NCBI GenBank assembly: GCA_017936885.1
Contig: JAGBEO010000005.1
Coordinates: 186,001-250,000 of the forward strand
Direction: 5' to 3'
DNA: 64,000 nucleotides
Source of the DNA: Lachnospiraceae bacterium
GTDB lineage: Bacteria > Bacillota > Clostridia > Lachnospirales > Lachnospiraceae
Part shown: in pieces, positions 40,684 to 54,408 of the stretch
Layout: every line of letters starts with the position of its first letter
Position numbering within the stretch: position 1 is the first letter of the stretch
Position numbers and translations under genes: made by a program
Notes under the pieces: model-generated
The model's database searches: none
Told to the model about the DNA's origin: nothing
The model's input: only the letters and a program-made list of their open reading frames with translations

Positions 40684-41118
40684 TTACCGCTTTTCTTTAC
40701 TGTGCCCCTGTTTCAATCTCTCATCATCAAGAGCAAAACCTTTTTGCATATATCCTTTCAGAATTTTTGTCGCCCATATTCTGAATTGAGTGGCCTTTTG
40801 GGAATTTACCCTATATCCAACCGATATAATTGCATCAAGGTTATAATAGTTAGTCTCAGATGTCTGTGTTTTTCCTTTGATTGCACCATGCTGAGTGGTT
40901 GTTGCAATTTTTGCAACAACCACTTTCTCATCTAATTCACCGATACTAAAAATATTTTTCAAATGCCTGCTAATTCTGGACTTATCTACACCAAAAAACT
41001 CAGACATTGCTTTTTGAGTAACCCACAAGCTTTCATCCTTAATATATGCATTTACTGATACATCTCCATCTTCTGAGTTGTACAATACCATTTCCATTTG
41101 CTTTGAAAAATCATTCAA
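40684..41118 (-). pseudogene. Truncated RhuM-family protein
   Basis: 144 residues match only the N-terminal part of RhuM/Virul_Fac proteins ('YIKDESLWVTQKAMSEFFGVDKS', 'YNLDAIISVGYRVNS', 'FRIWATKILKGYMQKGF', 'DERLKQG'); the usual length is about 330. The last residues (HSKEKR) leave the family pattern and a stop follows, with no continuation recognised downstream. The start would be TTG with GGAG upstream, overlapping the end of the preceding fragment. RhuM genes often sit in restriction and defence islands. Confidence 0.75.
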
Positions 41119-41911: not shown

Positions 41912-42033
41912 AGCAGTTGACATTGCATATATTAAAGTGGTACACTTGTTTTAAACAAAGGTACAGTTATGAATGGCTTGGCGGTCATTCGGATTTTTTT
42001 ATCAGTTATAATGGGTTTGGCGACTCATTGGAA

Positions 42034-42721: not shown

Positions 42722-43582
42722 CTAAATATATATTGCTATTGGAATCACCATAAGTGTCGGTCCCTTTATTTCAGTTTTTATATCTCTTGGATCAACTATT
42801 TTGCTCAAAGATTCATCTTTGAAAATGTCTTGAAATTCTTTCATTTTATCTAACTTTAACTTAGAGAATGCTGTATTCCTTAACAAACTAATTGAGTCGC
42901 CATCTTCACATATTTTTGTAATTTTTCCTAAAATCTTATAGTTCCCATCCGTCAACTCACTCATATTTCTATTTAAAAAATAATTCTCATCTGTAGGAAT
43001 TACAATCTCCATATTATCTGTTTTACATATAATATCTTTTTTCCCATTCACCTGTAATCCACTTATAAGAGCATCTATCTGTTTATTGAATGTTTGACTT
43101 TCCATTACTTTTCTTGATTTGCTCTTGTTTCCTTTATTATCACTAAAAACGTTAACTAATGCCATTAATTCTTTAAAATTAACCAATAAATCAATTACTG
43201 GATTAGGTTTTAATGTTCCTTGCAACTCTACAAAATCACCTTCCATCAATTCATCTGTATCTTGTTTGATGTATTGATTTTCCTCTAATGATGATTTTAG
43301 TTTTTGAAATAGCGATACTGTGGTATGGGTTTTTTCTTCTGTTACAATTTGCTCATCATTATTTGATTTTTTCTTATTTCCAGAAATTCCAATTTGCAAC
43401 AAGGAAAATACGTTACTTGCGCCTATATTTGCATTTGCCTCTTCTTCTTTGCTCATGGAATTAGAAGTTTGCACATTTTTTATTTCTGAAAAACCATCTT
43501 CGATTGTTGCCAACATATCAAAAACAATTTTTGTATTGAGATAAATAGGAATTGTCAGTTTTTCTTTGTCTACTTTTATCAT
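42722..43582 (-). CDS. DUF6414-like defence-island protein
   Basis: 286 residues, soluble. The start 'TIPIYLNTKIVFDMLATIED' and the later 'FVELQGTLKPNPV' resemble DUF6414 proteins, which are found mostly in defence islands; this is from memory of the family and is not certain. The middle is Lys/Asn-rich. It follows the silent hsdS by 70 bases on the same strand. No catalytic motif was recognised. Confidence 0.6.
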   Translation of the reverse strand: MIKVDKEKLTIPIYLNTKIVFDMLATIEDGFSEIKNVQTSNSMSKEEEANANIGASNVFSLLQIGISGNKKKSNNDEQIVTEEKTHTTVSLFQKLKSSLEENQYIKQDTDELMEGDFVELQGTLKPNPVIDLLVNFKELMALVNVFSDNKGNKSKSRKVMESQTFNKQIDALISGLQVNGKKDIICKTDNMEIVIPTDENYFLNRNMSELTDGNYKILGKITKICEDGDSISLLRNTAFSKLKLDKMKEFQDIFKDESLSKIVDPRDIKTEIKGPTLMVIPIAIYI

Positions 43583-44222
43583 TATAGTATTTCCCCTTTT
43601 AGTAAGTGCTATGATTTTGTAAAACTAAATGCTTAGTAGACTTCATTATAACCTATATAAACATTTGTTGCAACAATCCCTTCTTGATTGTTTTTAGCTG
43701 TTCCAAATACACTTTTTCTTGTTCTAATATTTTATCCAATTGTTTTAGGAAATTTGCTATTTTATTTTGCTCTTCCATAATTGGTAAATGCATATCCATA
43801 TTATAAACACTGGAAAAATTAACATAAATCTGCGTTCCGCCTTGCACTAACTGTAATATTTTGTTCTTAATCAATGGCGAATTGATATAAGACCACAAAA
43901 AATATGGTAAAACATTTTTCTTACATATTAGTCTTTCGCTCCGCTGATTATAAATATAATTGTCATCATCAATTAAAATAGTCGAGCCAATTATTGTTCC
44001 ATTTTTCGTCTTATCATTAAGTACCATTACCAAATCATCTTTTTTTAATTGTTTATCTTTTGCTTTCCCAACAGGATTAATTCTTTGACCATTATCAATA
44101 TATTTTCCATTTGGAGAATAGTTACCAATAGAAATGAATTTACAGCTTCCATTTTCTATTACTAACGGTTCTAATGCAGTACCTCCATAATGTTCTACCA
44201 GATCAAATAATTTTACTTTTTC

Positions 44223-44333
44223 CCAATCAGGGAACTCATTTCCGTTATCATCTTTAAACCTAATTTCCTGTTTAAAAATTTGAGAAATTAGTCCTTTATT
44301 ATATGTCTCTAGGATCGAGATGCTTGACTCCTG
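44223..44333 (-). repeat. 111-bp perfect inverted repeat, left copy
   Basis: Encodes 37 residues of the central conserved region of HsdS (begins QESSIS, ends FPDW). Identical, base for base, to 49371-49481 in opposite orientation. Confidence 0.95.
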
Positions 44334-44918
44334 TTCTTTTATCATATTATTTATTGCGATCATAAACTTAGAAATCTTTTCTTGTTCTTCAAATAGTGGT
44401 ACAGATATAGTCGTTGTGGCTATTGAAGTTTTACTAATTGAAGAAACTTTGATACCTGTTATGAGAGGAATTAATTGTTTATGAAAACTTTCAGAATTCA
44501 TATAAAACCCCAAAAACATTGAAGCAAATTTTCTTTTAGGTCTACATGGAATAGTATGTAAACCTGATAGAACCTTTTGTTCATTTGTATTTGAAATTTC
44601 TGTCACTTTTCCAACAGTTTCATCTTCTGCTGTATCTGCAATTATTATGTCGCCATCTCTAAGGTAACTTTCTGATTTAAACTTTGATAAGTTTTTCTCA
44701 TTATTGATAAAAGGAACATTATTATTCTGAACATCTACATATTCATTGAATTTTACTAAAATATCTCCATAATGAATATTTTTTGTATTTTTAATTTTAT
44801 AATTCAAATCAGCTCTTGCATAAGTATTATTTTGCAATATATCAAATATATCACTAAAGGAGATTTGTTCCCAAAGAGTATCAAATTCAGGAAATCGAAG
44901 TTTTGGAATTCCTTCTTT

Positions 44919-44934
44919 CTTTATAATTGAGGAC
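44919..44934 (-). repeat. 16-bp inverted repeat at hsdS 5' end, left copy
   Basis: GTCCTCAATTATAAAG, the same as 48839-48854 in opposite orientation. The flanking bases differ on both sides. Confidence 0.85.
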
Positions 44935-45051
44935 GTATCTTATTTATAAAGTAAACGTCAAATCCTCCGCCTTGAATTTTAATCCGATTCATGCAAAACT
45001 TTAAAAAACTCAGAAAACTAATTAGTTTTTTTAAGTAAGGGAGGCACATGA

Positions 45052-45438
45052 ATGGACCGAATCACTCATCAAGTCCGGCTTGCAAACTGGACTAAAATAA
45101 TTGAACAATGCAACAACCGTCCTGCTGGAACAACTGCAAAGCAATGGCTCAGCGACAACGGAATCAGTGACAAAAGTTATTACTATTGGTTACGTAAGCT
45201 GAGAAAAGAAGCTTACGCCAATGCAGAAAAAGAATTTCCTGCTGTCAGACCTTCGCAGGAACAACAACCTGCCGTAACCTTCGCAGAGATTCCACTGCCA
45301 AATCAGCAGAATTCCCTGACGGATACCTTCCGGGCAGATGCTGTTATACATATCGGAACTATGGTGATCGGCATATCAAACACGATATCTGATACACTAT
45401 TATCCCGGCTTCTGGAGGCAGCTCATCATGCTCGCTGA
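45052..45438 (+). CDS. tnpA: IS66 family accessory protein TnpA
   Basis: 128 residues. N-terminal helix-turn-helix of the kind seen in IS66 OrfA ('QWLSDNGISDKSYYYWLRKLR') and a C-terminal part with 'AVIHIGTMVIGIS'. It overlaps tnpB by 11 bases, the usual coupling. AAGGGAGG lies upstream of the ATG. It is needed with TnpB and TnpC for IS66 transposition. Confidence 0.9.
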   Translation: MDRITHQVRLANWTKIIEQCNNRPAGTTAKQWLSDNGISDKSYYYWLRKLRKEAYANAEKEFPAVRPSQEQQPAVTFAEIPLPNQQNSLTDTFRADAVIHIGTMVIGISNTISDTLLSRLLEAAHHAR

Positions 45439-45784
45439 AGCAGCTGGTGTAAAAAAGATCATCATTGCCTGTGGAAGGACGGATCTTCGAAAGGGTATTG
45501 ATGGCCTTGCCCAACTTATTGGCACGAAATACGACCTGAATCCTTTTGAAAAAGATGTTCTGTTCCTGTTCTGTGGAAGCCGTGGTGACCGTATACGCGG
45601 ACTCCTATGGGAAGGAAATGGCTTCCTGCTTTTGTATAAGAGGCTGGAGGCCGGTTCATTCTCGTGGCCGCGTACTCCTCAGGAAGCTGCCGAACTGACA
45701 CGGGAACAATACCGTATGCTCATGATGGGACTGAATCCGTTAAATCCCAAAATCAAAGATGTCAACCCGCAGAAAATCTTCTGA
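45428..45784 (+). CDS. tnpB: IS66 family accessory protein TnpB
   Basis: 118 residues, full length, with family signatures 'GRTDLRKGIDGLAQL', 'LFLFCGSRGDRIRGLLWEGNG' and 'FSWPRTPQEA'. Follows tnpA with overlapping ends. This is the IS66 ORF2 protein; it is not related to the IS605 TnpB nuclease. Confidence 0.93.
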   Translation: MLAEAAGVKKIIIACGRTDLRKGIDGLAQLIGTKYDLNPFEKDVLFLFCGSRGDRIRGLLWEGNGFLLLYKRLEAGSFSWPRTPQEAAELTREQYRMLMMGLNPLNPKIKDVNPQKIF

Positions 45785-46053
45785 TCTTTATGCAAAACAG
45801 AGATTTTTTCAATGGATTTAAACTAAAATATATGGTCTGTACGGTGACTTTTACATCCGTCATCAAACCGCTTCTATCTGGTCATATAAATGGCACAGAA
45901 GAAAAAATGAACCTTGAAAACGCTATATTTCCTTGTTCGTCAGTAAAGTATTTACGCATTTTTAGCCATAGGCATTTTGACGAATGGCACCTGAAGGAAG
46001 ATTCGCCATATCCTGGCACTTGCTGTATAATAAAATCCAGGAGGAGCATCCAT

Positions 46054-47682
46054 ATGAGTAAGAAACATACCCTGAACGAACTGAATAACATGAGCCGTGA
46101 AGACCTGATCACGATTGTTCTGACTATGCAGGGACAGCTCGATACACTGAATGACAATATCGAGAAACTCATAGAACAGGTACGTCTTGCGAATCAGCAC
46201 CGTTTTGGCCGCAGTACGGAAACTTTAAAATACATGGATGGACAACTCTCTTTTTTCGATGAAGCTGACACTCTGTTCGACCCTAATGCAGTGGAACCAG
46301 AGACGGATGAAGTCGTTCCTGCAAGACCACGTAAAAAGAAGGCTAAGGGACAGCGTAACATCGACCTGAAAGATTTCCCGGAAGAGATCATTCCGACACA
46401 TGGTGTTTCCGAAGATGCACTGGATACATTCTATGGAAAAGGAAACTGGAAACGTATGCCGGATGAAACTTACAAACGTTTGCGCCATGAACCGGAATCA
46501 TGGACAGTCGAAGTCCATACAGTCGAAGTGTACGTCGGAACAGATGGTTATCACCAGGATGAGTTTGTCCGTGGAGACAGGCCAAAGGATATCTTCCCGA
46601 ACAGTATTGTCACCCCGTCACTTCTCGCATCCATTCTGAATGTAAAATATGTGAATTCCGCACCACTTTATCGAATTGAACAGGAATTCCAGCGTAATGG
46701 TGTAAATATATCAAGACAAACGATGGCAAACTGGATCATTAACAGTTCCAATCGTTACTTTTCTGTGCTTGTGGAACGAATGAAGCAGGAGCTATTGAAA
46801 CTTCCTGTTACACAGTCAGATGAGACACCGACTCAGGTGGTCCATGATGACCGTAGTCCAGGCAGCAAGAGTTATATGTGGGTGCACAGATCCGGTGAAT
46901 TCTTCAAAGAATGTCCGATTGTTATCTATGAATATCAAAAAGGTCGAAACCACGAACTACCATTGGCATTCTATCAGGACTATAGCGGAATACTTGTGAC
47001 AGATGGATTAAAGCAGTATCATCTGCTGCAGGATAAGATCCCAGGCCTTACGAATGAGAACTGCTGGGCACACGCAAGGCGTGATTACGCAGATGCCATA
47101 AAAGCAGCAAACAAAGTAGATGGCGAAGCGGTAAAACGTTCCATTGCCTATCAGGCATTGAAGCGAATTGCTTTCATATATGAACTGGAAGGTACTTTAA
47201 AAGACCTGACTCCCGAAGAGCGTCTTCAGGAACGGCAGAACTCGGTCAAGCCGTTTGTTGAGGAATATTTTACGTGGGTAAAAAAACAATTATCTGGTAC
47301 AACAGTTCTGCCCAAAGGCAAAACTGCTGATGGTTTAAAATACAGTGTAAATCAGGAACAATATCTCAAAGTCTTTCTTGAGGATGGCAATGTACCAATC
47401 GATAATTCGGCCTCCGAAAGATCCATACGTACTTTCTGCATTGGCAAGAAGAACTGGATGTTCCATGATTCCGTGAAAGGAGCACAGGCAAGCGCTGTAA
47501 TCTACAGCCTGTCTGAAACAGCAAAGCTCAACAACCTGAGACCGTATCATTATTTCAAACACCTGCTTACAGAACTTCCAAAGCTCTGTGATGATAAAGG
47601 AAATATAGATTCTACAAAACTGGATCATCTGTTGCCCTGGTCAACGGAACTTCCGAAAGAATGTAGAAAACCACGCCGCTAA
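46054..47682 (+). CDS. tnpC: IS66 transposase TnpC
   Basis: 542 residues from the ATG with AGGAGG ten bases upstream; the frame stays open for 130 codons before it without a better start. A coiled-coil N-terminus ('LIEQVRLANQHRFGRSTE') is followed by a zinc-finger-like part and the DDE transposase domain ('SDETPTQV', 'GILVTDGLKQY', 'NCWAHARRDYADA', and 'NSASERSIRTFCIGKKNW' with the catalytic Glu). Complete and without stops. Confidence 0.93.
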   Translation: MSKKHTLNELNNMSREDLITIVLTMQGQLDTLNDNIEKLIEQVRLANQHRFGRSTETLKYMDGQLSFFDEADTLFDPNAVEPETDEVVPARPRKKKAKGQRNIDLKDFPEEIIPTHGVSEDALDTFYGKGNWKRMPDETYKRLRHEPESWTVEVHTVEVYVGTDGYHQDEFVRGDRPKDIFPNSIVTPSLLASILNVKYVNSAPLYRIEQEFQRNGVNISRQTMANWIINSSNRYFSVLVERMKQELLKLPVTQSDETPTQVVHDDRSPGSKSYMWVHRSGEFFKECPIVIYEYQKGRNHELPLAFYQDYSGILVTDGLKQYHLLQDKIPGLTNENCWAHARRDYADAIKAANKVDGEAVKRSIAYQALKRIAFIYELEGTLKDLTPEERLQERQNSVKPFVEEYFTWVKKQLSGTTVLPKGKTADGLKYSVNQEQYLKVFLEDGNVPIDNSASERSIRTFCIGKKNWMFHDSVKGAQASAVIYSLSETAKLNNLRPYHYFKHLLTELPKLCDDKGNIDSTKLDHLLPWSTELPKECRKPRR

Positions 47683-47725
47683 CAATCTGGCGGCGTTAAT
47701 TTATCGGTAAGCGTATGATTTGACG

Positions 47726-47755
47726 TTTACTTTATAAATAGTAAATTTGTATAAT
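47726..47755 (+). promoter_or_regulatory. Hybrid promoter of the recombinase gene
   Basis: TATAAT lies 35 bases before the recombinase ATG. The best -35 (TTTACT, 18-base spacer) has its first five bases in the IS66 terminal repeat, so the insertion may have supplied it. Confidence 0.5.
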
Positions 47756-47790
47756 GTAGGGTTTCAAAAAATAGAAAGGAGCTTTATATT

Positions 47791-48726
47791 ATGGAAGATT
47801 TATTATTTAGGGATTGGTTAGAAAAATGGATGTTAGAACAAGAAAATTTAATTAAAGAATCATCATGTGCCAGCTTTGATTTGCATATTCAAAATCATAT
47901 AATTCCTTATTTTAAGGATTATAAACTTGAAGAAGTAGATAACAATTCTATACAAGAATTTATTTATTATCTGTCAAAAGAAGGAAGATTAGATGGAACG
48001 GGAGGACTTGCAATAGCAACAATCAGGGATATAATTCTTGTTGTAAAGTTATCGTTAAAAGAAGCAGCAAGAAAGAATCTGATCAACAAACCTATTTTTG
48101 ACTTGAAATATCCCAAAATATATGTTGACGATCAATTAGTAACCTTAACTAAAGAAGAACAACATAAATTGGTACAAGCAGTTTACTTAGATTTAACTCC
48201 CAAATCTGTTGGATTACTCATTAGTTCTTTTTGTAGTTTACGAATCGGAGAATTATGTGCTTTGAAATGGAGCGACATTAATTTTGCTGACAAAACAATC
48301 ACAATCAACAAAACATTACAAAGAATTTATAAAAAAGGATGCAAAAGCAAAATAGTCATTGGTCCGCCTAAAACAGAATCTTCTTATAGAATCATTCCAA
48401 TCCCATCTCAATTAGCATTGATAATGCAAAAAATTCAAAATAAAAGTAATTATTATGTACTTACAGGAACAAAAAATTATACAGAGCCAAGAACCTATCG
48501 GAGATATTATCAAAATTTTATGAGAAAGAATGAGTTGCCACAAATCAAATTTCATGGACTTAGACACACATTTGCAACTAGGGCAATAGAGAATCCTGAA
48601 TTTGATATTAAAAGTTTGGCATATGTTATGGGGCATAAGAATCCTTCATTTACCTTGAATGTATATGGGCGTAGCAACCTATCACAATCAAGAAAATGTA
48701 TGGAATCCTTAAACAGTATGTTATAA
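47791..48726 (+). CDS. Tyrosine recombinase of the invertible hsdS locus
   Basis: 311 residues. An N-terminal SAM-like DNA-binding domain (to about 105) and a catalytic domain with R151 ('SLRIGEL'), K194, H255-x2-R258 ('HGLRHTF'), H282 ('GHKNP') and nucleophile Y292 ('NVYG'). AGGAG precedes the ATG. Enzymes of this type shuffle hsdS genes (CreX/PsrA of pneumococcus). It reads in the same direction as the active hsdS, 80 bases upstream, and lies between the two inverted hsdS copies; phage-type integration seems less likely as no other phage genes are near. Confidence 0.9.
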   Translation: MEDLLFRDWLEKWMLEQENLIKESSCASFDLHIQNHIIPYFKDYKLEEVDNNSIQEFIYYLSKEGRLDGTGGLAIATIRDIILVVKLSLKEAARKNLINKPIFDLKYPKIYVDDQLVTLTKEEQHKLVQAVYLDLTPKSVGLLISSFCSLRIGELCALKWSDINFADKTITINKTLQRIYKKGCKSKIVIGPPKTESSYRIIPIPSQLALIMQKIQNKSNYYVLTGTKNYTEPRTYRRYYQNFMRKNELPQIKFHGLRHTFATRAIENPEFDIKSLAYVMGHKNPSFTLNVYGRSNLSQSRKCMESLNSML

Positions 48727-48744
48727 GGTAATGCAAAATTACTC

Positions 48745-48773
48745 TTAATTAACGGTAAGGTATATGCTATAAT
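48745..48773 (+). promoter_or_regulatory. Promoter of the active hsdS
   Basis: TTAATT, 17 bases, then TGCTATAAT (extended -10). Lies between the recombinase stop and the hsdS ATG. Confidence 0.65.
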
Positions 48774-48806
48774 ATATAAATACTAAAGTTGGAAAGGAAA
48801 ACAAAT

Positions 48807-49979
48807 ATGACAGAAAATACTGTTTTAGATAATAATGTGTCCTCAATTATAAAGTTTAAAGATAAAGATGGAAATGAGTATCCTGAGTGGGAGTATGCTC
48901 CTATAGGTACTGTATGTGAAATAAATCCAAAACCAGATAAATTAGAAAATGAATTTTATTATATTGATTTAGAAAGTGTTGAAGATGGAAAGCTATTAGA
49001 TGAAAAAATTGTTTTTAAAAGTAATGCCCCAAGTAGAGCCCAAAGAACATTAAAAGAAAATGATATATTATTTCAAATGGTCAGGCCATATCAAAAAAAC
49101 AATTACTTTTTCAGAGAAGTCAGAGATAAGCAAAGTGTTGCTTCAACAGGATATGCTCAGATAAGAAGTAACAATATAAATCCTATGTTTGTATATGAAT
49201 TTATTTTTGCAAATAAATTTGTAAATGATGTCTTACTTAGATGTACAGGGAGTAATTATCCTGCCATTAATTCAAATGATTTAAAAGGGATAAATATTTC
49301 AATTCCTTGTAAGGAGGAGCAATCAAAAATTGCCTTATTTTTAAGTAGTATAGATAATTTAATATCAATTCAGGAGTCAAGCATCTCGATCCTAGAGACA
49401 TATAATAAAGGACTAATTTCTCAAATTTTTAAACAGGAAATTAGGTTTAAAGATGATAACGGAAATGAGTTCCCTGATTGGATTGAGTGTAAATTAAAAG
49501 ATTTATATATTTTTGAATACGGAGAAGGGAATAACAATCCGAGTAACGGAGGACAATATCCCGTTTATGGAGCCAATGGAATAATAGGATCTTATACTAA
49601 GTATAACGCAGAACAATCAATTATTATTGGTCATATGGGAGCATATGCAGGCTCCGTTTTATGGGAAGATAGAAAACATTTTGTAACTTACAACGGAACA
49701 ATAACCAAGCCAAAAGATAAAGCAGCTATCGTTCCCAAATATGGATATTATTTATTATTAAATAGAAAAATAGATAAAATTTGTGCTGGAAGTGGTATGC
49801 CATTTTTAGCATACAGCACGCTTAACAACATAAAGGTTATAACTACTTTATGTCTTAAAGAGCAAGAAAAAATCGCCAATTTTCTTACATCCTTAGACAA
49901 TGTATTACAGGAAGAAAAGAACTATCTTAAATATCTAAAAACCATAAAAAAAGGACTTCTGCAACAGATGTTTGTATAG
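48807..49979 (+). CDS. hsdS: Type I restriction-modification specificity subunit HsdS (active copy)
   Basis: 390 residues: target-recognition domain 1 (about 20-190), conserved helical region 1 carrying the 111-bp repeat, domain 2 (about 225-365) and helical region 2 ('LKTIKKGLLQQMFV'). Each domain starts with a similar phrase ('FKDKDGNEYPEW' and 'FKDDNGNEFPDW'), the usual two-half symmetry. The ATG with GGAAAGGA upstream was chosen over an upstream TTG. It reads toward hsdM, opposite in strand, with a terminator between. HsdS sets the DNA sequence methylated and cut by the complex. Confidence 0.93.
   Translation: MTENTVLDNNVSSIIKFKDKDGNEYPEWEYAPIGTVCEINPKPDKLENEFYYIDLESVEDGKLLDEKIVFKSNAPSRAQRTLKENDILFQMVRPYQKNNYFFREVRDKQSVASTGYAQIRSNNINPMFVYEFIFANKFVNDVLLRCTGSNYPAINSNDLKGINISIPCKEEQSKIALFLSSIDNLISIQESSISILETYNKGLISQIFKQEIRFKDDNGNEFPDWIECKLKDLYIFEYGEGNNNPSNGGQYPVYGANGIIGSYTKYNAEQSIIIGHMGAYAGSVLWEDRKHFVTYNGTITKPKDKAAIVPKYGYYLLLNRKIDKICAGSGMPFLAYSTLNNIKVITTLCLKEQEKIANFLTSLDNVLQEEKNYLKYLKTIKKGLLQQMFV
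48839..48854 (+). repeat. 16-bp inverted repeat at hsdS 5' end, right copy
   Basis: GTCCTCAATTATAAAG, about ten codons into the active hsdS, so recombination here would move a start codon and promoter in front of the silent cassette. Confidence 0.85.
49371..49481 (+). repeat. 111-bp perfect inverted repeat, right copy
   Basis: Central region of the active hsdS; identical in reverse orientation to 44223-44333. The sequences outside it diverge at once on both sides. Confidence 0.95.
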
Positions 49980-49984
49980 TAATA

Positions 49985-50018
49985 GAGTGCTACTGATAAA
50001 TGGTAGCACTCATTTTTT
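49985..50018 (+). terminator. Terminator after the active hsdS
   Basis: GAGTGCTAC...GTAGCACTC stem with a 9-base loop and six T, separating hsdS from the convergent hsdM. Confidence 0.85.
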
Positions 50019-50038
50019 ATGTTCATAAAATTTTCTTC

Positions 50039-51607
50039 CTAAATTCTGAATGTTGGCAATCCCAATTCCTCTAAGAACTTGTTTGCTTCTACTTTTGCAT
50101 CAGCAATTTTCGTCTGTGTTTCATCCAACTTTTTGAATGTTTCATAAAGATCAACTGCTTCCTCTTCTTCAAATGTATCTACATAACGAGGAATATTGAG
50201 GTTATAGTCATTTTCTATGATTTCATCCATTTTGGCAATATGACAATACTTTTCTACTTCTTTTCTTTCTTCATAAGTTTTTACAATCTTATCAATATGC
50301 TCATCTGTAATATAGTTCATAGCTTTTCCCGCCACAAACTCCTTGCTTGCATCTATAAAGCAAATATCATCAGAATTACCATTTCTCTCTTTCTTAAACA
50401 CCAAACAGGCTACTGGAATAGATGTTCCCTGAAAGCAGTTTGCAGGAAGCCCAATAACAGCGTCAAGATAATTCAATTCCTTAACAATATATTTTCTAAT
50501 TACCTCTTCTGAAGAACCCCTGAAAAGCACTCCATGCGGAAGCAAAACGGCAATCCTGCTGTCTCCATCTGCCATATGATAAATCATATGCTGCACAAAC
50601 GCAAAGTCTGCTTTTGATGAAGGTGCCAATTTCCCATAAGCAGAAAATCTTTCGTCTTCCAAAAACTTAATATCAGCAGACCATTTTGTTGAGTATGGCG
50701 GATTCGCTACCTGTACTGTAAACCTTTCATCTTCAAAGTTACTGTCATCTTCCAATGTATCTACATTAACAATATTGAAATTTTGGTAACGAATGTCATG
50801 CAAAATCATGTTCATTCTTGCAAGGTTATAAGTGCTGCTTGTCATTTCCTGTCCATAATATTTTCTGACATTTGCATACTCTCCAACCTGTAACAATAAG
50901 GAACCTGAACCACAAGCAGGATCACATGCACTCAACACATCAGAGAGTCCAACTGTTGCTAATCTTGCCAACAACTTTGACATATTAGTGGGAGTATAGA
51001 ACTCCCCGCCCTTCTTCCCTGCTGTTGAAGCAAAATTACCAATCAATGTAATGTAGGCAGAGCCAAGAATATCAACATCCGTATCACCCATCTGGAAATT
51101 GATTGTATCTATTGTCTGAATAATTTTTCCGATTAATTTTCCTCTTTGAGATACTTCCTTACCAAGTTTCGAGGATTTTAAATCCATATCTTCAAACAAA
51201 CCATTAAAATCTGCTTCTGAATCCTGTCCAAGTGTAGATTCTGTAATGGAATTGATAATTTCTTCCATATAATCAATGGTAAATGTACCATTCTCTATCA
51301 TTTTTACAACATTACCAAATAGGTATTTTGGTTCAAGAACATAGCCAAGTGTAGAAAGGGAGTCTTCCACCAAATCATCATGGTAGGCAACATCTTCCCA
51401 TGCATCTACATAGGAAATATCGTCATCCTGTAATAGTTCATTCATAAAACTTTCTGTTCTATCAGATAGATGTTTATAGAAAATTAATCCCAAAATATAG
51501 TTCTTAAATTCATACGCTTCCATATTTCCACGAAGATCATTTGCCATAGCCCAAAGTTTTGTAGAAAGTTCTTGTGCTAATTGTTTTTGCTTATTTACAT
51601 CTGCCAT
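50039..51607 (-). CDS. hsdM: Type I restriction-modification DNA methyltransferase HsdM
   Basis: 522 residues. N-terminal helical HsdM_N domain (to about 155), then the N6-adenine methyltransferase domain with SAM motif DPACGSG (229-235), 'GGEFYTP' before it and catalytic NPPY (302-305). Complete. It methylates adenine in the sequence chosen by HsdS and forms the M2S core. It follows hsdR by 20 bases with its own GGAG site. Confidence 0.96.
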   Translation of the reverse strand: MADVNKQKQLAQELSTKLWAMANDLRGNMEAYEFKNYILGLIFYKHLSDRTESFMNELLQDDDISYVDAWEDVAYHDDLVEDSLSTLGYVLEPKYLFGNVVKMIENGTFTIDYMEEIINSITESTLGQDSEADFNGLFEDMDLKSSKLGKEVSQRGKLIGKIIQTIDTINFQMGDTDVDILGSAYITLIGNFASTAGKKGGEFYTPTNMSKLLARLATVGLSDVLSACDPACGSGSLLLQVGEYANVRKYYGQEMTSSTYNLARMNMILHDIRYQNFNIVNVDTLEDDSNFEDERFTVQVANPPYSTKWSADIKFLEDERFSAYGKLAPSSKADFAFVQHMIYHMADGDSRIAVLLPHGVLFRGSSEEVIRKYIVKELNYLDAVIGLPANCFQGTSIPVACLVFKKERNGNSDDICFIDASKEFVAGKAMNYITDEHIDKIVKTYEERKEVEKYCHIAKMDEIIENDYNLNIPRYVDTFEEEEAVDLYETFKKLDETQTKIADAKVEANKFLEELGLPTFRI

Positions 51608-51627
51608 TCTCTATTTCTCCTTTATTC

Positions 51628-54408
51628 TTATAATTGATATTTATTGCAATTCTCGATAATGAATTCCATTATCTCTGTTACTAACAACTTTTTCTCTTTA
51701 TACGAAAATGATCCCTTCAATTCGCTTCTGATAGCATCTTTATCCAAAATATGACTAAACTCAAACTCAGAAATCAAGCCTCTGAGGAAAGAAAACTCAA
51801 TATTTTTATCCGTTGCAAATGCCTCAATTTCTGATGTTCTTGCCTTGTCTTCATATTCTGAATACTTTTCTAATACATCTTCATCTTCCTGTATTATCGG
51901 CATCATTTCATTTAAGAATGCTTTGATTAAATCAACCTTTTTCTTTAACTCAGGATTATCTGTTCTATCTAATTCATCAAAGATATGAGCCAAATCTTTC
52001 TCTTTTTGTTTCTTATCTTTCATATCTATATTTTTCAGTAGATTCATAATATAAGCAACATTTATCTTATCAGTTTGGATAATTTCAATGCTAAAATCTA
52101 TATCATCTAAAATAGATACTTTTTCGCTCTCTCTTCCCTTTACAATACTATCATGAATCGTAAAATATCTGCCTTTGAAATCTTCATATTCCTGTTGCTC
52201 AATACTATCTTCAATATCTGCCCAAGTAAAATCTGTAAAAGTTTCAAGCGTCAAAAGCACTTTGGAAAGTTCCCTAAAAGCAATAACAAATTTTGCTTGT
52301 TCCTCTTCGCTCTGCATATGATCTATATCTGCTGGTGTTTTAGCTTCATTATGAAGAATTGCAGCCAATTCTTTAAATTGTTCAACATAGTACTCATAGG
52401 GTTTCAGAAGCACTCCTGTCACATCGCCGCCACCAGAGAATAATCTCAGAGCATCATCTGTCTGCTTCTTCAAGTTTCTGTAACAAATAATATTTCCAAA
52501 TTGCTTTGTTTCTTTTTCTACTCTGTTTGTTCTTGAAAAAGCCTGTAACAAATTATGCCACTCTAAGTTTTTATCTACATATAAGGTGTTCAACGGTCTG
52601 CTGTCAAAACCTGTCAAATACATATTTACGACAATCAACAAATCAATTTCAGGAATTTTCTTCACTTTTAATCTTTTTGAAATGTCAGCATTGTATGCAG
52701 CAAAGGTATCTGTTGTATACTTTGTATCAAACATTTTATTGTAATCATCCATGATTCTCTGTAAGGAATCTCTGCTATGTTCCACCTTATCTTCCAAATC
52801 TTCATTTGTGCCAAAACTGAATACAGCAGCAATCTTTAAATTGTGGTCTATCTTCTTAAACTCATCATAATATTTCATAAGCATCGGAATGGATGATGTC
52901 GCAAAGATAGCTGTATATTTATTTCCACTAATCCTAGTTTTTGTGTTATGATGATCTACAATATGCTGTGCAACCAAAGAAACTCTTTCATCTGATTCTA
53001 AGACTTCCTTTTTATCAATCGCTTCTACCAAAGTGCCATCATTTTCATCATACTGCCCTTCATAGGTGCTAATATACTCGACATTGAATCCAAGAACATT
53101 TTTATCAAAAATAGCTTCTTTGATAAGATATTGATGCAAACACTCTCCAAATACGTCACTTGTTGTTCTTCCATCCTGGGATTTATTTTCAACAAATCTT
53201 GGAGTACCTGTAAAGCCAAAATATTGTGCTTTCGTAAAGAATTTCTTGACATCATTATGCATCTTTCCAAACTGGCTTCTATGGCATTCATCTATTATGA
53301 ATATAACTTTTTCATCCCTATATGGAAGAATTTTTTTCTGATAATAAGGCTTTCTAATTGCAGTTGCCATTTTCTGAATTGTGCTGATAATCAATTTTTT
53401 ATTGGGATCTTCAATCTGCTTTACTAATGTATCTGTTCTATCTGTATAATCCACACAACCATCTTCAAAACGATTGAATTCCTGCATAGTTTGGGTATCC
53501 AAATCACTTCTATCTACTAAGAAGAATACCTTTTTAATCTTATTTTCTTTCGTTAGTAGTTGAGCAGTTTTAAAAGAAGTAAGTGTTTTTCCTGAACCTG
53601 TTGTATGGAAAATATATCCACCTTTATCAGTAGTAAGTGCCTTCCGTAAGATCGATTCTGTTGCAAAAATCTGATAAGGTCGCATAACCATCAAATTTTT
53701 ATCTGTTTCATTGATAACCATATATCTATGAATCAGCTTCGTTAAGCGATTTTGATTTAAAAATGCAGAAGAAAAATCATCTAAATTATTAATTCTCTCG
53801 TTTGCTTCATCAGTCCAATAAAAAGTTAATGATTTCATAATTCTTGTATCATCTGTATTAGAAAAATATCTTGTTTCTACAGAATTTGAAACTATAAAAA
53901 CCTGAACAAAATGAAACAGTCCTTTGTAACTATGTATACGATACCTGTCAATCTGATTGATCGCTTCTTTAATGTCAATTCCACTTCTTTTCAATTCGAT
54001 CTGAACAAGTGGAAGCCCATTACATAGAAGTGTCACATCATATCTATTTTTATATTTTCCAACAACGGTAACTTGGTTTGTTACCTGCCATATATTTTCT
54101 TCTGGATTTTGGCTCATAAACTGTAAATAAATTCTGCTATTATCATCCCTGTCCAACACAAATTTATCTCTTAATTGCTTTGCACACTGAAACACAGACT
54201 TTCCATGTGCAATCCCCTGAATTAAACGGTTAAATTCTATATCAGACAAAGGAACATCTCCTAAAGTATCTTTATTAAAAATACTTATTTGCTCTCTAAA
54301 ATTTTTTTCTAAAGCATCATAATCATCCAATTTCACAAAAGTATAATTTAAAGTACTCAACTTTTTAATCAGTTTATCTTCAAGTTGTGCTTCACTTTGA
54401 TATGCCAT
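51628..54408 (-). CDS. hsdR: Type I restriction endonuclease subunit HsdR
   Basis: 926 residues. The N-terminal PD-(D/E)xK nuclease has D124 and E138-x-K140 ('IELKR'); the SF2 helicase motor has Walker A TGSGKT (about 270-276), DECH (373-376) and 'FTGTPRF'; a helical C-terminal part binds HsdM. It translocates and cuts unmodified DNA. No frameshift is seen, so restriction should be active. It follows a small helix-turn-helix gene by 50 bases. Confidence 0.96.
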   Translation of the reverse strand: MAYQSEAQLEDKLIKKLSTLNYTFVKLDDYDALEKNFREQISIFNKDTLGDVPLSDIEFNRLIQGIAHGKSVFQCAKQLRDKFVLDRDDNSRIYLQFMSQNPEENIWQVTNQVTVVGKYKNRYDVTLLCNGLPLVQIELKRSGIDIKEAINQIDRYRIHSYKGLFHFVQVFIVSNSVETRYFSNTDDTRIMKSLTFYWTDEANERINNLDDFSSAFLNQNRLTKLIHRYMVINETDKNLMVMRPYQIFATESILRKALTTDKGGYIFHTTGSGKTLTSFKTAQLLTKENKIKKVFFLVDRSDLDTQTMQEFNRFEDGCVDYTDRTDTLVKQIEDPNKKLIISTIQKMATAIRKPYYQKKILPYRDEKVIFIIDECHRSQFGKMHNDVKKFFTKAQYFGFTGTPRFVENKSQDGRTTSDVFGECLHQYLIKEAIFDKNVLGFNVEYISTYEGQYDENDGTLVEAIDKKEVLESDERVSLVAQHIVDHHNTKTRISGNKYTAIFATSSIPMLMKYYDEFKKIDHNLKIAAVFSFGTNEDLEDKVEHSRDSLQRIMDDYNKMFDTKYTTDTFAAYNADISKRLKVKKIPEIDLLIVVNMYLTGFDSRPLNTLYVDKNLEWHNLLQAFSRTNRVEKETKQFGNIICYRNLKKQTDDALRLFSGGGDVTGVLLKPYEYYVEQFKELAAILHNEAKTPADIDHMQSEEEQAKFVIAFRELSKVLLTLETFTDFTWADIEDSIEQQEYEDFKGRYFTIHDSIVKGRESEKVSILDDIDFSIEIIQTDKINVAYIMNLLKNIDMKDKKQKEKDLAHIFDELDRTDNPELKKKVDLIKAFLNEMMPIIQEDEDVLEKYSEYEDKARTSEIEAFATDKNIEFSFLRGLISEFEFSHILDKDAIRSELKGSFSYKEKKLLVTEIMEFIIENCNKYQL

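Follow-up and report, generated by a model that had tools for sequence, protein, structure and literature searches.

A probable inverting type I restriction-modification locus with a travelling recombinase and hsdS start cassette in a Lachnospiraceae bacterium

Which of two opposed specificity genes is expressed in a type I restriction-modification (R-M) locus, and can the choice be changed? The question is raised by a 64,000-nt stretch of contig JAGBEO010000005.1 (assembly GCA_017936885.1, genome G000) from a Lachnospiraceae bacterium, hereafter the window, in which two hsdS copies, hsdS1 and hsdS2, point away from a tyrosine recombinase gene located between them. Judging from the sequences compared below, this is very probably an inverting type I R-M locus, with a travelling cassette that carries the recombinase and the hsdS start, two opposed hsdS arms and four HsdS states. 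The main evidence for inversion is a relative of the locus in which the cassette lies the other way round.

The sequence-only reading from which this analysis started had described two opposed hsdS genes with a tyrosine recombinase between them, and the open reading frames (ORFs) were confirmed in this arrangement, hsdS1 being on the minus strand and the recombinase and hsdS2 on the plus strand (Table 1). The interval then proposed, 43653..51607, was correct for the hsdS genes, the recombinase and hsdM, but it omitted an intact hsdR beyond its end. Both hsdM and hsdR are full-length matches to their Pfam and NCBIfam families; HsdR matches Pfam EcoR124_C at E 4.1e-50, to be read with the fact that the type IC (EcoR124I) group itself is defined by subunit exchange. 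Downstream of the recombinase gene and on its strand, hsdS2 is convergent with hsdM.

A single start-bearing hsdS was found at the locus, namely hsdS2, behind the recombinase gene and not behind hsdM. Its start, ATGACAGAA, is preceded by the purine-rich AAAGGA. The 5′ end of hsdS1 is without a start codon: upstream of the 16-bp repeat described below, its frame reads GAT ACG and then meets a TAA (44940-44942), before the neighbouring insertion sequence (IS) begins, and the first ATG, GTG or TTG after that TAA is the TTG at 44837, the use of which would cost the first 34 codons. hsdS1 is predicted to be a silent specificity gene and hsdS2 the active one. Two other starts were considered and rejected. 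For hsdS2, the ATG at 48807 was preferred to the TTG at 48789 because the frame from the ATG is conserved in the relative; for hsdS1, the 394-amino acid ORF started at TTG lacks the first 34 codons, including a block conserved in the start-bearing gene of the relative. The promoter is weakly supported: the -10-like TATAAT before hsdS2 was read by eye and is absent from the sites listed by a promoter scan of the stretch, which gave 42 sites versus 35.4 expected by chance. Since the sole start and the likely promoter stand between the two 5′ repeats, they are within the DNA turned by either inversion, and the promoter of the expressed hsdS probably travels with the recombinase.

Perfect inverted repeats of 111 bp at mid-gene and 16 bp at the 5′ end had also been claimed for the two hsdS copies, and both proved to be exact. 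The 16-bp repeat recurs in the relative as a 17-bp exact repeat. Both kinds of repeat are in one reading frame in the two genes, as judged by the intact frames of the inversion products. Among other exact inverted repeats longer than 14 bp between positions 42000 and 55000, only a 24-bp pair was found, formed by the ends of an IS66-type element and its target duplication. By the criterion of a published survey, which counted exact inverted hsdS repeats from 20 bp upwards within a locus, the 111-bp repeat makes this an inverting type I R-M locus.

A scan of the genome collection with the recombinase yielded six related loci, with 93% identity in one of them (L012) and 25–35% in the other five. 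L012 is contig JAAUZC010000041.1 of a Lachnospiraceae bacterium metagenome-assembled genome, evidently the same as contig C41 of genome G625, as the recombinase has the same coordinates in both; G625 was assigned to the family of the window's genome, and on another of its contigs are hsdR and hsdM, the latter up to codon 359. In L012, the end of hsdM, the recombinase gene and the start-bearing hsdS are co-oriented; the headless hsdS stands between hsdM and the recombinase, past an IS-like element, and the start-bearing hsdS is the copy distal to hsdM. The recombinase reads toward hsdM in the window, and the L012 cassette is reversed relative to hsdM and to TRD1a, the first target-recognition domain (TRD) of hsdS1. 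The alignment blocks change strand at the 5′ repeat: window 44289-44953 corresponds to L012 5134-4468 reversed, and window 47728-48854 to L012 3377-4504 forward, where the block ends at the 5′ repeat. With the IS joined out and one 5′ flip made in silico, the two regions aligned as one, over 1,821 columns at 88% identity (L012 3320-5134), while without the flip the blocks stayed separate. The outer flanks are anchored in both loci, the distal 3′ ends being 98.6% identical (70 bp) and the proximal 3′ ends 91.2% (159 bp). The start-bearing gene of L012 joins the conserved first codons to TRD1a, which is the join predicted for the flipped window. Misassembly at the 5′ site is unlikely, since ordinary sequencing reads are longer than a repeat of 16–17 bp. 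It appears, then, that an inversion at the 5′ site distinguishes the window from L012.

The consequences of inversion were followed in silico from the single start, and an open frame was obtained in every state. The HsdS product has 390 amino acids in the present arrangement; the 5′ flip makes it 437, the mid flip 414 and the two flips together 413. The four HsdS proteins foreseen from sequence alone (two 5′ halves by two 3′ halves) are thus matched by four intact frames. The protein of the 5′-flipped window opens like the start-bearing HsdS of L012, with the same TRD1, and is 58% identical to it over the full length, the value being no higher because TRD2 differs. The double-flipped product, also with the same TRD1, is 58% identical to it and the current product 30%; as the 5′-flipped and double-flipped products score alike, this comparison supports the 5′ join only.

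The mechanism proposed is as follows. At the centre, one cassette would carry the recombinase gene, the sole hsdS start codon followed by the first codons, and probably a promoter, and the arms TRD1a-TRD2a and TRD1b-TRD2b would lie head to head around it. By inverting DNA between the 16-bp 5′ sites, the recombinase would move the start to the other arm, swapping the whole HsdS, and by inverting between the mid-gene repeats it would exchange the first target domain between the arms. Both inversions together would give four HsdS proteins, one of them start-bearing at a time. We infer that the recombinase acts on both types of repeat, that inversion is still ongoing and that the HsdS variants methylate different motifs.

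The recombinase is predicted to catalyse the inversions. Residues R151, K194, H255, R258, H282 and Y292, which we take to be the catalytic set of the family, are invariant in 11 of 11 aligned recombinase sequences, and the reading frame is intact. As for its sites, the pattern TATAAT-NN-RGGAC is common to the 5′ and mid repeats (11 of 13 bases), and in the window it occurs exactly at the four repeat positions, with 0.11 occurrences expected. The middle two bases of this core vary with the type of site: 5′ sites have TG in either locus, whereas mid sites have AA in the window and AG in L012. If they are within the strand-exchange region, these bases would bar recombination between a 5′ site and a mid site, which would delete or scramble an arm.

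Exchange between the copies of each locus is suggested by the repeats themselves. The 5′ site is GTCCTCAATTATAAAG in the two copies of the window and GTCCCCAATTATAAAG in the two of L012, with T in the window versus C in L012, and the identity begins and ends abruptly between unlike sequences. Over the 111 columns of the mid repeat, the window copies are identical (111/111), while window-to-L012 identities are 90/111 (81%) and 77/111 (69%). In L012 the exact part of the mid copies is 44 bp; within it, each locus has two identical copies, and five positions distinguish the window pair from the L012 pair. The repeats thus seem to have been homogenised within each locus, for the L012 mid repeat over 44 bp only. 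With respect to selection, the headless TRD1a compared to the start-bearing TRD1a of L012 gave a ratio of non-synonymous to synonymous substitution rates (dN/dS) of 0.175 over 195 codons, which would be lower than expected of an arm that is never expressed.

Several observations weigh against the interpretation given above. The evidence of inversion consists of assembled sequences from two genomes and concerns the 5′ site only; since the TRD2s differ between the window and L012, inversion at the mid site is unreadable from this pair. The L012 mid copies are just 79/111 (71%) identical to each other over the 111 columns. The dN/dS values of the recombinase (0.055), hsdM (0.036) and hsdR (0.031) leave that of TRD1a three to six times higher. 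The dS values are also uneven (recombinase 0.57, TRD1a 0.53, hsdM 0.13 over its first 355 codons, hsdR 0.22); the locus being a mosaic by this measure, the orientation argument is safest for the recombinase versus TRD1a, which are of like divergence. The 13-mer core was picked after the sites had been seen, and shuffles of the 5′ site reached 11/13 in 14 of 1000 cases against the 111 bp, in 1 of 1000 against the 44-bp part and in 6 of 1000 for L012, as did 6 of 2000 random window 16-mers against the 44-bp part. In the whole assembly, the core pattern had five matches, four of them these sites, and a backwards control pattern likewise had five, so the core count is not remarkable in itself; the pattern having been drawn from these very sites, the counts are also partly circular. 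In the alignment with solved Tn1549-type integrase structures, two entries differ from each other in F/Y, and this at the column of V291, immediately before Y292, so that the alignment does not by itself fix the nucleophile. Last, the IS66 element abuts the promoter region of the recombinase.

Concerning other explanations, the likeness between the hsdS copies could be that of duplicated genes sharing conserved protein segments, or mere chance, with no recombination involved. The mid region encodes the spacer between the target domains, which is generally conserved among hsdS genes. Protein conservation, however, would hardly keep 111 bases identical with zero synonymous changes where identity to L012 is at most 81%, and it accounts neither for the 5′ identity, abrupt at both ends amid unlike sequences, nor for the opposite orientation of L012, so that this explanation is scarcely credible. 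It is also conceivable that the locus was invertible until recently and is now locked, the IS66 element at the recombinase promoter having silenced or altered the recombinase and hsdS2 having been fixed as the expressed copy. The element does adjoin the -10-like element of the recombinase, displacing the sequence upstream of it. On the other hand, a -35-like TTTACT, nearly all from the IS end, stands before this -10 with 18-nt spacing (by consensus match only), L012 retains both the -10-like element and the stretch from there to the start, the recombinase frame is not broken and the repeats are still 100% identical. A locked state seems improbable to us.

A different matter is whether the mid-gene exchange is due to homologous recombination or gene conversion over the 111 bp, the recombinase being limited to the 16-bp sites. 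The 111-bp identity far exceeds the length of a core site, and the statistics of the shared core are modest. Furthermore, in the SpnIII (ivr, cod) locus of Streptococcus pneumoniae, the recombinase of which is called CreX, PsrA or IvrR, one study found that without CreX there was no switching at the 15-bp repeat and less of it at the 333-bp repeat, whereas the 85-bp repeat was not affected (PMC6620402; here and below, published systems are described from extracts of the papers cited). But the variant distribution was unchanged by the loss of recA in pneumococcus (PMC6620402), and the longer-repeat inversions were strongly reduced without PsrA in work cited in PMC7096588. In the loci compared here, the core is present in the mid repeat of both, and the L012 mid repeat has been homogenised within its locus although its exact part is only 44 bp. 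We regard an exchange independent of the recombinase as somewhat unlikely, and prefer the reading in which one recombinase would serve both types of site.

Table 1. Features of the R-M locus, in window numbering (position 1 is the first letter of the stretch).
Feature	Positions	Strand	Remarks
hsdS1	43653..44939	-	TRD1a-TRD2a, 428-codon headless open frame; Pfam Methylase_S E 3.2e-23; PADLOC type I specificity
Mid-gene inverted repeat, copy A	44223..44333	.	111 bp, exact
Shared core TATAATNNRGGAC, mid repeat A	44291..44303	-	
5′-end inverted repeat, copy A	44919..44934	.	16 bp, exact; breakpoint of the inversion relative to L012
Shared core TATAATNNRGGAC, 5′ repeat A	44922..44934	+	
In-frame TAA just upstream of hsdS1	44940..44942	-	Outside the IS element
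Target duplication TTTATAAA, left copy	44943..44950	.	8 bp
IS66-type insertion sequence, inside the invertible segment	44951..47730	+	2,780 bp; matching ends, flanking 8-bp direct repeat
IS66 ORF	45052-45438		No family match
IS66 ORF	45428-45784		TnpB
IS66 ORF	about 46000-47682		DDE transposase
Target duplication TTTATAAA, right copy	47731..47738	.	8 bp
-10-like TATAAT upstream of recombinase	47750..47755	+	Kept in L012; consensus match only
Tyrosine recombinase	47791..48726	+	311 amino acids; Pfam Phage_integrase E 9.9e-20
-10-like TATAAT before hsdS2	48768..48773	+	Within the invertible segment, kept in L012; read by eye
hsdS2	48807..49979	+	TRD1b-TRD2b, 390 amino acids, start-bearing; Pfam Methylase_S E 2.4e-24
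5′-end inverted repeat, copy B	48839..48854	.	16 bp, exact
Shared core TATAATNNRGGAC, 5′ repeat B	48839..48851	-	
Mid-gene inverted repeat, copy B	49371..49481	.	111 bp, exact
Shared core TATAATNNRGGAC, mid repeat B	49401..49413	+	
Terminator-like hairpin, between hsdS2 and hsdM	49985..50011	+	Pattern match; 8 such sites in the stretch versus 5.0 expected
hsdM, N6-adenine methyltransferase subunit	50039..51607	-	522 amino acids; Pfam N6_Mtase E 6.5e-98; NCBIfam TIGR00497 above cut-off
hsdR, restriction subunit	51628..54408	-	926 amino acids, intact; Pfam HSDR_N, EcoR124_C; NCBIfam TIGR00348 above cut-off

The locus had been likened to SpnIII, and the likeness holds for the logic of a long plus a short repeat, which agrees with the published work, but not for the layout, as here the start moves with the recombinase. 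Shared with SpnIII are hsdR, hsdM, several hsdS genes, an in-locus tyrosine recombinase, inverted repeats of 15 bp and longer, hsdS copies without transcription start and a recombinase the orientation of which flips (PMC6620402, PMC4948785). In the CreX work, a common 10-bp core was described in all repeats, with the 15-bp repeat strictly CreX-dependent (PMC6620402), and in the PsrA work, IR1-like sequences within the longer repeats (PMC7096588); the published SpnIII core, ATTATGGGAA, differs from that of the window, TATAATNNRGGAC. SpnIII has one complete, transcribed hsdS with hsdR and hsdM, as well as three hsdS copies and six variants, whereas the window has its only start behind the recombinase, inside the invertible segment, and two arms with four variants. 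With no hsdS directly after hsdM, the layout of the window is not that of SpnIII.

The nearest precedent found for a recombinase-hsdS transcript is SsuCC20p of Streptococcus suis: an hsdS that follows the recombinase gene, xerD, is transcribed there and has a part in methylation (PMC10790761). The window sequence likewise has a start-bearing hsdS behind its recombinase gene. Nevertheless, SsuCC20p keeps a second start-bearing hsdS directly after hsdM (PMC10790761), and there is none in the window or in L012. The inverting type I loci surveyed in REBASE by Atack et al. (2020) have duplicated hsdS genes, exact inverted repeats of at least 20 bp and often a recombinase (PMC7394358), and these loci and that of Listeria monocytogenes CC4 include a silent hsdS without start codon, as hsdS1 is predicted to be (PMC7394358, PMC7662400). 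Unlike the window, the loci of P. gingivalis and T. forsythia have a functional hsdS directly after hsdM and nowhere else (PMC7394358), and hsdR, hsdM and hsdS are co-transcribed in the CC4 locus (PMC7662400). Among gut invertons, group 145 combines a restriction subunit S with a nearby tyrosine recombinase in Bacteroidota and Firmicutes_A, and its authors think that it spreads horizontally (PMC11892184).

Among family-level relatives, loci L051 (genome G720) and L075 (genome G832) combine hsdRM with an array of several hsdS copies, in which there are inverted repeats, and their recombinases are 48–49% identical to that of the window. They differ from the window in that a start-bearing hsdS, with frames that begin ...IMGENRS and IIMANVSS, stands beside hsdM, in that the other hsdS copies have no ATG before the first conserved block (only ATG was checked) and in that the recombinase is at the far outer end, outside the listed repeats. 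L075 (629-8702, G832:C45) is a shuffling array larger than that of the window: seven hsdS-like frames follow hsdM, of which two are short and only the first has an ATG ahead of the conserved block, and the 48%-identical recombinase is at the far end. No description of this locus, or of a Lachnospiraceae hsdS switch with this layout, was found among the open-access matches listed, judged by titles and abstract starts, most subscription journals being outside this scope. So, it can be said that the kind of locus is known, while the layout is modestly new. Whether it should be taken as an inverting type I system turned round seems to us evenly balanced: in such a system the flipping cassette would serve two arms, the supply of HsdS would be uncoupled from the hsdRM operon, only one specificity would be start-bearing at any time, recombinase and hsdS would be co-transcribed in every state, and the unlike middle bases would separate the types of site.

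Two members with the exact layout were found, the window and L012. Searches with the recombinase were made in four sets, and the matches, the window among them, numbered 5 in 61 relatives (cut-off E 1e-40), 17 in the class set of 391 (1e-48), 8 in the family set of 397 (1e-65) and 2 in the phylum set of 398 (1e-65); the sets overlap, and at most five candidates per genome were scored in the class, family and phylum sets. None of the matches listed in these four sets was more than 50% identical beyond G000 and G625. Recombinases 38–50% identical, fetched with their flanks, had hsdS nearby in three of eight loci (L051, L075 and L080); no hsdS was found in L077-L079, and L054 and L076 end at a contig edge just upstream of the recombinase. 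Recombinases of about 25–36% identity were rejected as markers of the same system, no hsdS match at E 1e-4 being present in the 16 wide-flank loci scanned (L013-L016 and L055-L066; 15 distinct, as L015 and L060 are the same contig place). Viral contigs gave two loci only, with partial recombinase matches at 28–29% identity. On plasmids, 20 records were matched, all below 60% identity; three of the 20 were opened, two of them without annotated hsdS within 7 kb (gene tables incomplete) and one unannotated there. As a separate observation, the approximately 32–36%-identical recombinases of L013, L055, L056, L060, L061, L063 and L065 are closely flanked by inverted repeats of 23–28 bp (166 bp at 93% in L055) and may be self-flipping cassettes, with two in tandem in L013; by eye, some neighbours in L013, L055, L056, L060, L061 and L065 resemble polysaccharide or secreted-protein genes, and others are unlike these.

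The IS66 element, which had not been mentioned in the sequence-only reading, sits between hsdS1 and the recombinase gene, and a second copy was not found in a search of its own assembly. That it beheaded hsdS1 was ruled out, because the in-frame TAA is outside the IS and because L012 also has a headless copy without an IS there. L012 has an element of its own at 484-2234, between hsdM and the headless hsdS, with a 26-bp inverted repeat close to its ends and two ORFs that look transposase-like by eye, so an insertion next to the switch is present in both known members. The hsdRM half, window 50039-54408 compared to L049, is far less diverged at synonymous sites than the recombinase and TRD1a are between the two genomes, as would be left by a separate exchange of that half. 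Adjoining the R-M locus is a DUF6414 protein (42722-43582, Pfam E 1.7e-42). Further away, a 144-amino acid ORF (40684-41118) matches PADLOC PDC-S05 candidate defence models over roughly their initial 140 positions, out of about 335 in the best models, so that it is either a short form or a truncated gene. The same genome has another type I specificity gene, at G000:C10:273698-274798.

If the locus has been read correctly, the expressed hsdS alternates between two arms, neither of which directly follows hsdM, and a layout in which a cassette of recombinase, probable promoter and start codon flips would be added to the inverting type I loci. A survey assuming that the hsdM-adjacent hsdS is the expressed copy would choose the wrong one in L012. 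With one start codon, two opposed arms and two types of site, the locus would be a clean test case, in which reads covering two junctions would report all four states. A single clone of the bacterium could then carry four restriction specificities, hedging its bets against phages and incoming DNA, and the locus might act as an epigenetic switch too.

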